The position numbers were made by a program, and so were the translations under genes. Below the pieces are notes generated by a model that saw only the letters and a list, made by a program, of their open reading frames with translations, had not been told where the DNA came from and did not search any database. This document shows, piece after piece, positions 49,559 through 54,148 of a stretch of DNA of 64,000 nucleotides (positions are counted from its first letter, which is position 1; every line of letters begins with the position of its first letter). The stretch lies in assembly GCA_027484685.1 (NCBI GenBank), contig JAIXSO010000014.1:62001-126000 (forward strand), written 5' to 3'. Origin of the DNA: Bacteroidota bacterium (GTDB taxonomy: Bacteria; Bacteroidota; Bacteroidia; UKL13-3).

Positions 49559-50302
49559 CTAGTCACCACTGTTAACTACTGTATCTTGCACCACATCGTC
49601 ATTACCTTCTTCGTAATCTCCTTCTACTTCCTCAGGATAAGCACTTGGATCAATTTTTCTAATTTCATTGATAACAATATACTGAAACGATGATCCTGAA
49701 ATATTGCTATTTTCCATAATAGACTTTAATTCAGCTAATCTATCAGCTGTTTTGGCAATAGCCAAAGCTCTATTGATAAAAATGGCCGTTGCAATATCGG
49801 TTGTGCCTTCACTGTAACCTCTATCTTTAATCCAACCTCTTTCAATTCCTTTAGCTTTGCCGCGTTTACCCGCTACTTCTATCCAATCATCTTTTTTAGA
49901 AATTATGGCTATTACATCCATTTCGTTAAATGATTTTTTGCTAATGGTTGATAAATCAGGACGAGAATAAATATCCGATTTTTCAATAATTACCGCTGGT
50001 CTTGCCTCTACAGCCACGTAATCAGCCATAATCCAACCTTCGTTACCATCCAATAATTTTACTTTTAAGTATTGTTTGCCTTTTTCTTCTTCTTTATCAT
50101 CTAAAAACATCAATTTTTCGCCAAGTGAAACGGAAGAAAGTACTTTTCCTTCTTTTTTTGATGGTTTATCTAACACGGGTGCCTTATCGGAAATACATAC
50201 CGATGGAATTTCTTTATCGCTACCACACGAAACAAATGAGGTTAAAATAAAGCTAATAGCTAAAAAAAGAAATACGGTTTTTTTTATAAAATTTAAGTTC
50301 AT
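49559..50302 (-). CDS. SH3-domain lipoprotein
   Basis: Starting at the ATG at 50302 gives MNLNFIKKTVFLFLAISF and a lipobox ending SFVSC; an earlier in-frame ATG would add nine residues that spoil the signal peptide. Two bacterial SH3-like repeats follow (about 35-90, with GNEGWIMADYVAVE, and 95-155, with WIEVAGKRG and RGWIKDRGYS). A helical part and an acidic tail end the protein. Such SH3 repeats often bind cell-wall peptides. The neighbouring putative peptidoglycan enzymes upstream fit that, but the role is inferred. Confidence 0.7.
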   Translation of the reverse strand: MNLNFIKKTVFLFLAISFILTSFVSCGSDKEIPSVCISDKAPVLDKPSKKEGKVLSSVSLGEKLMFLDDKEEEKGKQYLKVKLLDGNEGWIMADYVAVEARPAVIIEKSDIYSRPDLSTISKKSFNEMDVIAIISKKDDWIEVAGKRGKAKGIERGWIKDRGYSEGTTDIATAIFINRALAIAKTADRLAELKSIMENSNISGSSFQYIVINEIRKIDPSAYPEEVEGDYEEGNDDVVQDTVVNSGD

Positions 50303-50372
50303 TGTTAATTGAAAATTTTTGAACCGCAATTAATGCATTTGAAGTCTTATTTTAAAATTAAAATTGACTGTT

Positions 50373-51062
50373 TTAGTTAAATTTTGTGCCTAGTAGCCAT
50401 TTTATTACTGCTGACTTATCTAAAATTTTACCAATTACTACATAACTTGAATTATCTAATGGATTATGGCCTTCTAAATTTTCAGATAAAACACCTATAT
50501 CGGGTTTATAATAACTAGAGTGTATAAATTTTAAAGTTTGATTATGCTTAAATATGAATCCAACATGACAATCTAAACCAACAATATAAAGTCCGTTACT
50601 TTTAGTTAAAATGTATTGCTTAATATTTTCAATTGGCTCATTTCTATATCTTTTTATATCTTTAGAAAACTTTTTGATAAAAACTTCGGAAGCCAATTTA
50701 GCCCAATCGGTATAAGGAATATTAAACCCCGCTTGATATAAAATAGTGGTTACAAAATAACCACAAGCTATGGAACCTTGTTTTGGAACTTTGGTTTGCC
50801 CATAAAAACTCCAAGGCGTGCCATACCAATATTTAAAATATTCGTTTACTATGGTTTTATAAATATAATATTGAGCCTCTGAAATAATAGAGTCTTTTTG
50901 ACGTTCATTTTTAGCATTTAAATATAAATGTCGCAGTTCTGCTTGGCGCTTTTTATTAGTTGCAAGCAGCTGATTATAGGCACTATCCTGCTGCGCAAAA
51001 ACTGGCAACATTGTAGTAAACAATAGGGCAAAAAAAAGTAATTTAATTTTCATCATTGCCAT
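50373..51062 (-). CDS. Secreted NlpC/P60-like (papain-fold) putative cell-wall hydrolase
   Basis: The 229-residue product has a signal peptide (cut near VFAQ). A cysteine-peptidase core follows, with YWYGTPWSFYGQT, then IACGYFVTTILYQAGF (Cys100 as nucleophile) and DCHVGFIF (His166 as base), in NlpC/P60 order. Such enzymes usually cut peptide cross-links or acyl groups. The first ten bases overlap the end of the upstream caspase-like gene, so the two are co-translated. It is the third gene of an apparent envelope operon. Confidence 0.65.
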   Translation of the reverse strand: MAMMKIKLLFFALLFTTMLPVFAQQDSAYNQLLATNKKRQAELRHLYLNAKNERQKDSIISEAQYYIYKTIVNEYFKYWYGTPWSFYGQTKVPKQGSIACGYFVTTILYQAGFNIPYTDWAKLASEVFIKKFSKDIKRYRNEPIENIKQYILTKSNGLYIVGLDCHVGFIFKHNQTLKFIHSSYYKPDIGVLSENLEGHNPLDNSSYVVIGKILDKSAVIKWLLGTKFN

Positions 51063-51817
51063 CCTGTAATTAAAATATTTTTAGCTGCTTTTACACTGCA
51101 TTTTTGATATTTGGCATAAGCCAAAGGTGCTTTATTTCTTACTTCGTTATTACTTTTATTATTTATATAAGCTTCCAAAGCATCGTGTAAGGTATAGGCC
51201 TCCGGACACATTAAAGTGTTGGTTAGCAATAAAGGCAATGCATTGGCTGATTTAATAAATGGTTCAAAATAAGCTCTACTCACACATGCCAAAGCTATGC
51301 AGCTGCGTTGTATTTTATCGGTATTTTTAAATGTGTTTGGCAGTTCAAAATCCATTAAACCATTGTGCCCAATATAGGCCACCAAACTAGCATTGCCATT
51401 AATTCCAAGCTCAATGCCATCAACAGTTATTTTTTGCTTATTGGTACCAGCCAAACTATTAAAAAATTGAATAGTGCAATCTTTTATATTTTTACCATTG
51501 TAAGCATCGGCTACTAAATAATAATTTTGAGTTTTGTGCTTAAAAATCAATCTTTCTAAAACCATACCATTGGCTTTAAATGTTTTAACAAGTTGCCAAT
51601 TTTTACTTTTTGAAAAATATGTTTTTATACCAAAACCTGCACCCCAATATAAATTGGTAGCTGCATTTTGTCCGTTACCAATTTTAGGCGGAACTTTAAC
51701 TATGCCTTGGTATTCATTATCGCATAAAGCCACAAATACATGGATGGTTTTAGCACTCATTTTAGCTTGTAATGCATATGAATATAAAACACTTAAAATC
51801 AAATAAATATATTTCAT
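51053..51817 (-). CDS. Secreted caspase-like protein of unknown function
   Basis: The 254-residue product has a signal peptide and a fold pattern resembling clan CD peptidases: a first strand IHVFVALCDN, then YYLVADAYNG, the His strand LVAYIGHNGLMDF (His151) and the Cys strand CIALACVSRAYF (Cys178), then LLTNTLMCPEAYTLHDALEAY. The His-Gly/Ala-Cys spacing of about 27 residues is shorter than in most caspases. The assignment is tentative; the conserved motifs themselves are clear. It lies between a transpeptidase-like and an NlpC/P60-like gene on the same strand. Confidence 0.5.
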   Translation of the reverse strand: MKYIYLILSVLYSYALQAKMSAKTIHVFVALCDNEYQGIVKVPPKIGNGQNAATNLYWGAGFGIKTYFSKSKNWQLVKTFKANGMVLERLIFKHKTQNYYLVADAYNGKNIKDCTIQFFNSLAGTNKQKITVDGIELGINGNASLVAYIGHNGLMDFELPNTFKNTDKIQRSCIALACVSRAYFEPFIKSANALPLLLTNTLMCPEAYTLHDALEAYINNKSNNEVRNKAPLAYAKYQKCSVKAAKNILITGWQ

Positions 51818-51825
51818 ATTATAAG

Positions 51826-52476
51826 TTATTTTTGGTTAAAGATCCACATTAAAACAGGCTTTTTCTCGTTTTTAAGTTTGTTATCCATCCAAGTCATGTT
51901 GGTGTTAGAAATGGCAGGGCAACCCCAACCTTCAGGAGTTCCATCAGGAAAAATTTCTTCATCGGCAATGGCATCCCAACCATGAAAAACAATTAGCCTA
52001 TTAACTGCATTGGCATTTTGCTTTTCAAGGCCATGCATTAAATATTTAATATTAATACCCCAATTGCTGTAACCCCTCTCTCCTATTTTATACTTGCCCA
52101 ACGCGGTGCAATGGCTTCCATCAACACTGCTAAAAGTGGGATTTTCTTTTGAATCATCACTGCTCCAACTGTTATTTCCGCAACCATGGCTTACCAAAAA
52201 GCTGTTTATAAAAGTATCTTTCTTAAAATCCCAAACAAAAAACCGGTTTAAACCTGAATGCATTCCCATATTGATGAGCAAAGCAAATTCAGTATTTAAC
52301 TTGTTGGTTTTACAATAGGTAAATGCCTTTTTAGCCTTTTGCTTCAATGCGGCAAAATTTAAAGCAGGCTTTTGTTCATTATTAGTTAACGATTTTAATT
52401 GCCTACTAAAACTATTTGAATTAGTGCAACTTATACTAAAAAAATAAAAAACCACTACAAAAATTATTCTATTCAT
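51826..52476 (-). CDS. Murein L,D-transpeptidase catalytic-domain family lipoprotein
   Basis: The 216-residue product has a lipoprotein signal (FFSISC). The body matches the 'murein L,D-transpeptidase catalytic domain' family: LLINMGMHSGLNRFFVWD, SFLVSHGCGNN, SHCTALGKYKIGERGYSNWGI, RLIVFHGWD and the catalytic segment GWGCPAISN with the nucleophile Cys. Such enzymes make or edit 3-3 cross-links in the periplasm. Its stop is nine bases from the start of the caspase-like gene, so they form one operon. Confidence 0.75.
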   Translation of the reverse strand: MNRIIFVVVFYFFSISCTNSNSFSRQLKSLTNNEQKPALNFAALKQKAKKAFTYCKTNKLNTEFALLINMGMHSGLNRFFVWDFKKDTFINSFLVSHGCGNNSWSSDDSKENPTFSSVDGSHCTALGKYKIGERGYSNWGINIKYLMHGLEKQNANAVNRLIVFHGWDAIADEEIFPDGTPEGWGCPAISNTNMTWMDNKLKNEKKPVLMWIFNQK

Positions 52477-52690: not shown

Positions 52691-54148
52691 ATGGATTTCA
52701 ATAGTGTTATTCCAACATCTAAACGCATAGAACGATTGCAATACGAAAACCCATGGTGGGTTTCGGGGCAAGTACAACAAAGCTATCAAGAAATGTCGAA
52801 AAGGCTGTATTTTGACTTGTTTTTCCCTTTTGTTAAAGATACCGATATAAAACGTGCTTTGGTGCTAATGGGCCCAAGGCGTGTGGGAAAAACGGTAATG
52901 ATGTATCATGCCATACAAGAACTATTGGCCGCAAAAATTACACCTAAAAAAATTTTTTTTATTGCAATAGACAACCCCATTTATATGCACTTGGGCTTGG
53001 ATGATTTATTACTTTTAACCCAAGAGGCCGTTAGTTTAGAAAACTTGGATGGTTGCTTTGTGTTTTTTGATGAAATTCAATATTTAAAAGATTGGGAGCG
53101 CCATTTAAAAGTATTGGTTGATTCATATCCAAATACCAAATTTGTGGTTTCGGGTTCGGCTGCTGCTGCTTTAAAGTTACAAAGTTCTGAAAGTGGTGCA
53201 GGTAGGTTTACCAATTTTATGTTGCCACCGCTTACTTTTCATGAATACATACACTTAAAAGGATTAAATCACTTAGTGCAATCAAAATCAATTATTTACA
53301 ACAATAAAGAAATACCATTTTTTACCACACACGATAATAAAGCTTTGAATAAAGAGTTTTTTCATTACTTAAATTTTGGTGGATACCCAGAAGTAGTACT
53401 TTCAGAAAAAATTCAAAGCGATATGGCAAGGTATGTGAAAAGCGATATAGTAGATAAAGTATTGCTGCGCGATTTGCCAAGTTTATATGGCATAAAAGAT
53501 GTGCAGGAACTAAATAGTTTTTTTAGTTATTTAGCTTATAACAGTGGTGGCGAAATTTCTTTTGAAAGATTGGCAAAAGACAGTGGTATTCAAAAAGAAA
53601 CCATCAAAAAATATTTGGAATATTTAGAGGCGGCTTTTTTAATTAAGGTTATTCATAAAATAGATGATAATGCTAAAAAATTTAAGCGTGTTACTAACTT
53701 TAAGGTATATCTTACCAATCCATCATTGAGAACGGCTTTGTTTTCGCCAATTCAAGAAACTGACAATGAAACTGGAAATATGATAGAAACGGCTATTTTT
53801 TCACAATGGATGCACCGCGAAAACCTGGATTTAAAATATGCAAGGTGGAAAATGGGTCGTTCGGAGGGTGAAGTTGATATTATATTGATTGATAATAAAC
53901 TATTTAAACCTCAATGGTGTGTAGAAATAAAATGGAGTAACCGATATTTTGAAAAACCACAAGAACTGAAGAGCTTATTGCACTTTTGTAATCAAAATAA
54001 ATTTAATGCCACTTTGATTACTACTATGGATTTAGCAGGCAATAAAACAATTGATAATTTAAATATTACCTTTGTTCCTGCTGCTATTTATGCATACAAT
54101 ATTGGAGTAGTTACTTTGCTTCAAAAATCGAATTGGATGGGTGAATAA
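52691..54148 (+). CDS. AAA+ ATPase with DUF4143 nuclease-like C-terminus
   Basis: The 485-residue protein has Walker A GPRRVGKTVM near residue 58, Walker B CFVFFDEIQYLKDW near 130, and the sensor FVVSGSAAAALK. The PLTFHEYI strand typical of the AAA_14/DUF4143 family follows. A winged-helix part (GGEISFERLAKDSGIQKETIKKYLEYLEAA) and a PD-(D/E)XK-like end (GEVDIILID, CVEIKWSN) complete it. Bacteria often have several copies; some are linked to toxin-antitoxin or mobile DNA, but the function is unknown. A stand-alone unit with its own promoter-like element. Confidence 0.8.
   Translation: MDFNSVIPTSKRIERLQYENPWWVSGQVQQSYQEMSKRLYFDLFFPFVKDTDIKRALVLMGPRRVGKTVMMYHAIQELLAAKITPKKIFFIAIDNPIYMHLGLDDLLLLTQEAVSLENLDGCFVFFDEIQYLKDWERHLKVLVDSYPNTKFVVSGSAAAALKLQSSESGAGRFTNFMLPPLTFHEYIHLKGLNHLVQSKSIIYNNKEIPFFTTHDNKALNKEFFHYLNFGGYPEVVLSEKIQSDMARYVKSDIVDKVLLRDLPSLYGIKDVQELNSFFSYLAYNSGGEISFERLAKDSGIQKETIKKYLEYLEAAFLIKVIHKIDDNAKKFKRVTNFKVYLTNPSLRTALFSPIQETDNETGNMIETAIFSQWMHRENLDLKYARWKMGRSEGEVDIILIDNKLFKPQWCVEIKWSNRYFEKPQELKSLLHFCNQNKFNATLITTMDLAGNKTIDNLNITFVPAAIYAYNIGVVTLLQKSNWMGE

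Follow-up and report, generated by a model that had tools for sequence, protein, structure and literature searches.

Organization of the locus

Three consecutive genes on the reverse strand, all of them encoding putative exported proteins, were found in the window (the whole stretch of 64,000 nucleotides that was analysed). The first one (51826–52476) encodes a YkuD_2 L,D-transpeptidase-like protein of 216 residues, with H165 and C186 (codon 51919–51921; motif GWGCP) as its conserved His and Cys. It is followed by a gene (51053–51817) for an exported single-domain protein of 254 residues with a predicted clan-CD (caspase-like) fold, hereafter the middle protein, which carries H151 (codon 51365–51367) and C178 (codon 51284–51286; motif ALACVS). 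The third gene (50373–51062) encodes a protein of 229 residues with a predicted NlpC/P60 fold, in which C100 (codon 50763–50765; motif IACGYF) is accompanied by H166 and H181. According to the list of open reading frames, the YkuD_2 gene and the middle gene are separated by 8 bases, and the middle gene overlaps the NlpC-like gene by 10 bases. Moreover, a short hydrophobic leader of the export type was present at the start of all three proteins, as read directly from the sequence. The preliminary description of this locus, which reported three overlapping or abutting genes for exported proteins and a set of Cys and His residues in them, was accurate in both respects, since the named residues are not only present but conserved in each set of relatives (see below).

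A fourth gene on the same strand, located downstream (49559–50329) and outside the trio of the preliminary description, encodes an SH3-domain lipoprotein (PF08239 SH3_3, E 4.4e-07), whose relatives were found in 6 of 40 genomes, its own included. On the forward strand, a divergent gene (52691–54148) encodes an ATPase with AAA_14 and DUF4143 domains, for which PADLOC returned the candidate PDC-S01 (E 2.6e-59). Such ATPases are common, so a defence role of this one is unsure. Furthermore, a Bacteroidota-type promoter pattern was not enriched in the window (5 matches vs. 9 expected).

The outer two proteins

The YkuD_2 protein matched the Pfam family PF13645 with an E-value of 9.2e-30 and 103.7 bits, against a cut-off of 27 bits, and both H165 and C186 were found in 18 out of 18 aligned proteins, the one of the window included. 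It is most likely an ordinary peptidoglycan enzyme of the YkuD_2 L,D-transpeptidase-like kind. As a separate observation, in one congener (G003) two contigs each have a copy of YkuD_2 at their extreme end and a third terminates in a fragment (L155, L156 and L157), and a repeat may lie downstream of these copies.

None of Pfam, NCBIfam, PHROGs and PADLOC gave a meaningful match to the third protein; the best hits were at chance level and below the cut-offs. A total of 32 relatives were found, of which five partial or interrupted rows were omitted to give an alignment of 27, the window protein included. Weak AmiA-like Pfam matches appeared in seven of these members (best E 9.6e-4), and C100, H166 and H181, the last of them absent from the preliminary description, were present in all 27. 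The predicted structure of the window protein had a mean pLDDT of 92.8 and a pTM of 0.85. Foldseek gave no matches for it at E ≤ 0.001, while in a second-look structural alignment the NlpI-MepS structure reached a Z score of 13.1 and the DUF1460 amidase 4h4j one of 8.3, with titles naming MepS/Spr, NlpC/P60, the P60 domain or DUF1460 making up much of the top 24 rows. A Cys-His-His triad is given for DUF1460 and NlpC/P60 proteins in the literature (PMC10318531). Taken together, the model and the conserved residues support an NlpC/P60 fold with a Cys-His-His triad, and the third protein is most likely another ordinary peptidoglycan enzyme, a predicted cysteine amidase or endopeptidase of the NlpC/P60 type. 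The earlier assignment of two of the three proteins to cell-wall enzyme families was thereby borne out, by a Pfam match above the cut-off in one case and by structural comparison in the other.

The middle protein family

A search of Pfam, NCBIfam, PHROGs and PADLOC gave nothing usable for the middle protein, the best hits again being at chance level and below the cut-offs. Likewise, profiles of the family retrieved no sequence from the PDB in one search and a single chance match (E 0.53) in another. No name or description of the family was found in the portion of the literature searched, which consists mainly of open-access journal articles.

In GTDB genomes, two sequence patterns yielded 589 stretches among the matches listed, and at least 576 of these encode a relative; the figure was not taken as a number of genes, since stretches were counted under two patterns and one gene may appear twice. 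By title, the best 80 of these at least 576 stretches comprised 74 from Bacteroidota, three from Spirochaetota, one each from Fibrobacterota and Pseudomonadota, and one unassigned, the loci from outside the Bacteroidota being metagenome bins. In a tree built with a quick method, the records of Treponema, Chitinispirillales and Limnohabitans fell among those of Bacteroidota and, being metagenome bins, may be mis-binned; the nearest relatives of the window protein were not resolved in this tree. The middle protein is a member of a widespread family that occurs mainly in Bacteroidota, with Pedobacter isolates and Cytophaga aurantiaca among the carriers, and has no name in the libraries searched.

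These best 80 loci, nine from related genomes and genomes of the phylum, and the window protein were aligned (n = 90). H151, C178, G150, G153 and E206 were present in all 90 members. The N-terminal half of the family is very conserved, and three cysteines (C32, C178 and C240) are conserved as well. The distance from H26 to the C-terminus was 225–231 residues in 88 of the 90, and a hydrophobic leader was detected by a simple rule in 88, while a lipobox-like motif appeared in 18. The uniform length and the leader indicate that the protein consists of a leader and one domain, with no tail; the mature form of the window protein would start at about residue 22. When two relatives encoded on plasmids were added, H151 and Glu206 were found in 92 out of 92 proteins, C178 in 91 and Asp33 in 90. 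In a distant relative on an Agarilytica plasmid (L092:7839–8720), the catalytic Cys is replaced by Arg and Asp33 by Thr; judged from its sequence, this copy looks like a natural pseudoenzyme.

With the genome of the window counted in each case, the middle gene was found in one of 64 genomes of the order, five of 97 relatives and six of 395 genomes of the phylum, and it was absent from all nine congeners. Three plasmid records had a match to the family. Phages had none, and none of the 12 pattern stretches found in viral contigs was confirmed, so there is no sign that the family is carried by phages. Apart from the middle protein, the genome of the window carries an ordinary Peptidase_C14 domain (L232, contig 33 of G000, 1231–1845, E 1.8e-13), and hence a true caspase-family protein as well.

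Predicted fold of the middle protein

The AlphaFold model of the middle protein, based on the alignment of 90 rows, had a mean pLDDT of 92.2 and a pTM of 0.89. In this model, H151 lies just after the strand 145–149 and C178 just after the strand 172–176. In clan CD, core strands 3 and 4 carry the His and Cys at their C-terminal ends (PMC4357240), and the model places the conserved pair correspondingly, at the ends of two consecutive strands.

Solved structures were compared with the model in two ways. Foldseek against the PDB gave no match at E ≤ 0.001 among 602; within the 50 rows listed, the best clan-CD entry was a SAVED-CHAT structure (E 0.12, TM 0.35), and no caspase or metacaspase appeared. 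In the second-look alignment of 1,000 chains, which was restricted to rows ranked by Foldseek, so that unranked clan-CD rows could not show up, the SAVED-CHAT structure came first (Z 10.1, rmsd 3.6, 168 aligned residues), followed by gingipain R (Z 7.7 and 7.3) and C11 proteases (Z 7.5, 7.2 and 7.1), although the aligner itself notes that models lacking a clear match commonly reach a best Z of 7–8. Unrelated entries reached Z 5.9 and lower. CHAT belongs to clan CD, and the six top entries thus come from one clan. Because of this and of the positions of H151 and C178, the middle protein likely has a clan-CD-like (caspase-like) fold, as far as a predicted structure can tell, even though Foldseek by itself was not significant.

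Sequence comparison did not lead to the same clan. None of C11, C14, C25 and CHAT was among the 22 Pfam families listed at E ≤ 10 for the 90 members, and hhalign against the alignments of C14 and C11 gave probabilities below 1%, a weak test given the shallow query alignment (Neff 2.7). The middle protein is therefore not filed under any of these families. The preliminary description had called it caspase-like from its His/Cys pattern and proposed structure prediction as the check; the predicted fold, both in the AlphaFold model and in the second-look alignment, speaks for that label, while the sequence profiles do not.

Predicted activity and location

With such a fold, the middle protein would act as a small exported cysteine peptidase, in which C178 would serve as the nucleophile and H151 as the base; we infer this activity from the model and the conserved pair. 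As for its specificity, the C11 protease PmC11 binds a basic P1 residue, most likely through Asn50, Asp177 (two residues before the Cys) and Asp207, and the equivalents of these in MALT1 are Asp365, Asp462 and Glu500, as stated in PMC4850288. In the model of the middle protein, the first strand leads into a loop with Asp33, and the next strand after the Cys into one with Glu206, a correspondence with C11 and MALT1 drawn from secondary-structure position rather than from superposition. The positions of these two conserved residues suggest that the protein may cut after Arg or Lys. However, this basic specificity is uncertain, because the main S1 Asp of C11, two residues before the Cys, is replaced by Leu176 here. 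Moreover, neither a pro-domain nor a type IX sorting domain was seen in the middle protein, and its most likely place of action is therefore the periplasm or a membrane to which it is tethered.

It is also conceivable, though rather improbable, that the protein adopts a clan-CD fold without being a peptidase, using its His and Cys for another reaction such as acyl transfer, or binding a ligand. The three cysteines C32, C178 and C240 and the very conserved N-terminal half suggest a narrow ligand; furthermore, the C11-type Asp ahead of the Cys is missing, and sequence comparison did not connect the protein with known peptidase families. On the other hand, H151 and C178 follow consecutive strands, as they do in the peptidases of the clan, and the Agarilytica copy, the only one without the Cys among 92 proteins, also lacks Asp33, as expected if both residues cooperate, albeit in a single and very diverged case. 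The peptidase reading is preferred here, and if the family is active, it would represent a new family of clan-CD peptidases.

Gene neighbourhoods and co-occurrence

Among 210 loci, the only ones with all three genes together were the window itself. The surroundings of 89 other middle-family genes were inspected over up to 8 kb on each side, often less, and in nine cases over about 1.5 kb. Within the resulting 1,038 neighbouring frames, no YkuD gene and a single intact NlpC-like gene were found, the latter preceding the middle-family gene (L012). In another locus (L014), a remnant of the C-terminus of an NlpC-like protein (24 residues, 75% identity) precedes the middle-family gene. In genome G087, an NlpC-like gene is followed by a YkuD_2 gene that overlaps it; these stand in tandem with a third gene on contig 464 (L154:642–2587), which encodes an exported protein presumably resembling YiiX, as recognized by eye, and form a different cluster of exported enzymes. 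As for the congeners, the NlpC-like gene of G009 is adjacent to the SH3 gene, with neither a YkuD_2 nor a middle-family gene, whereas no member of the trio is found next to the SH3 gene of G003. In G005, some 4 kb separate the NlpC-like gene from the SH3 gene, and in G006 the contig ends too early to show this arrangement. The middle-family gene of genome G379 overlaps at its end with another gene (L007:2196–3230), whose product looks like the type IX secretion protein PorQ, as recognized by eye.

The commonest families among 83 close neighbours were CinA and MoCF_biosynth, with five each, among the 25 of 92 families listed. As wall-enzyme families with a single member may be hidden in such a tally, six probes were used, and 85 out of the 89 loci had no match to any of them. 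Papain-like or M23 wall enzymes directly adjoining the middle-family gene were an NlpC-like protein (L012), a DUF4846 protein (L002) and an M23 protein (L003); DUF4846 has been suggested to be NlpC/P60-like (PMC10318531). The probes matched three of 123 adjacent frames on the same strand and one of 915 others, a count that is biased, given that two probes were chosen from these very neighbours and the NlpC profile includes the L012 protein.

When the genome of the window was left out, NlpC-like genes were found in four of nine genomes with the middle gene vs. 22 of 475 without it (Fisher P-value 7e-4), a test that ignores relatedness and taxonomy and in which one of the four genomes (G179) has an interrupted copy among the matches. 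They were also present in 13 of 50 further genomes with the middle gene, this search having covered 50 of the 80 loci. The co-occurrence of YkuD (41 of 50 genomes with the middle gene vs. 15 of 96 relatives, the own genome excluded) was set aside, as the two samples differ in taxonomy. Given the NlpC-like gene beside the middle gene in L012, the remnant in L014 and the co-occurrence, the two genes may not be fully independent.

Overall, the three genes do not look like a conserved system or operon. A conserved operon was rejected on account of the varied neighbours, the lack of another trio in the 210 loci and the presence of the middle gene in only one of the 64 genomes of the order. The trio was probably assembled within the lineage of the window, and the middle gene was probably acquired horizontally, the alternative being repeated loss within the order.

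Interpretation of the locus

The reading that we consider likely is that three separately working exported enzymes share an operon-like stretch here, the middle one representing a new clan-CD-like family of cysteine peptidases. The outer two would be ordinary peptidoglycan enzymes, the middle one an exported peptidase, probably of horizontal origin, and their operon-like layout would be a chance arrangement in one genome. What the middle gene points to is a large and very conserved family of exported proteins.

The preliminary description had instead conceived of a wall-remodelling or wall-damage system with a proteolytic switch. Spelled out, cleavage by the caspase-like protease would activate or inactivate both wall enzymes. 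The tight spacing of the three genes would fit such a dedicated system, as would the NlpC-like gene beside the middle-family gene in L012, its remnant in L014, the overlap of NlpC-like and YkuD_2 genes in G087 and the excess of NlpC-like genes in genomes with the middle gene. Against it, gene order is not conserved, an outcome that the preliminary description had named as refuting: the comparison of trio conservation across genomes, which had itself been proposed as a check, returned the window only, no YkuD gene neighbours any of the 89 other middle-family genes, and the middle gene is missing from every congener, among which G009 has just the NlpC-like and SH3 genes and G003 the SH3 gene with no trio member beside it. 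The co-occurrence and the adjacent wall enzymes keep the idea alive, but at a low probability, and we regard it as very unlikely.

A looser association, in which NlpC/P60-type enzymes and the middle-family protein serve one pathway and are co-inherited without a fixed operon, horizontal transfer joining their genes now and then, would partly overlap with the explanation favoured above. The neighbours in L012, L002 and L003 and the higher proportion of probe matches among adjacent frames on the same strand are consistent with it, whereas the bias of that count, the 85 loci without any probe match and the co-occurrence samples unmatched for taxonomy argue against it; on balance we hold it to be unlikely. 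A more specific proposal, that of a mobile periplasmic clan-CD protease or ‘wall caspase’ that would regulate NlpC/P60-type hydrolases by cutting them and would sometimes be encoded beside its targets, seems highly improbable. The explanation retained is that of three enzymes that work separately.

Comparison with known systems

The YkuD_2 protein of the window does not differ notably from other PF13645 proteins of Bacteroidota, as it scores above the family cut-off and conserves the His and Cys. The NlpC-like protein shares the predicted fold, the Cys-His-His triad and the export leader with the DUF1460/AmiA-like (4h4j) and MepS/Spr amidases; it differs from NlpC/P60 amidases in having no Pfam match and in the long N-terminal helices of its model. 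The middle protein, in turn, has no sequence match to the Pfam models of C11, C14, C25 and CHAT, bears neither a pro-domain nor a C-terminal domain, and has Leu176 where C11 has the main S1 Asp. In contrast, it has in common with clan CD (C11 clostripain/iotapain, C25 gingipain and CHAT) the predicted fold and a His and a Cys just after consecutive strands. Furthermore, it carries conserved acidic residues in two of the loops around the S1 pocket of C11 and MALT1, and its export leader is in keeping with the C11 proteases and gingipains, which are secreted.
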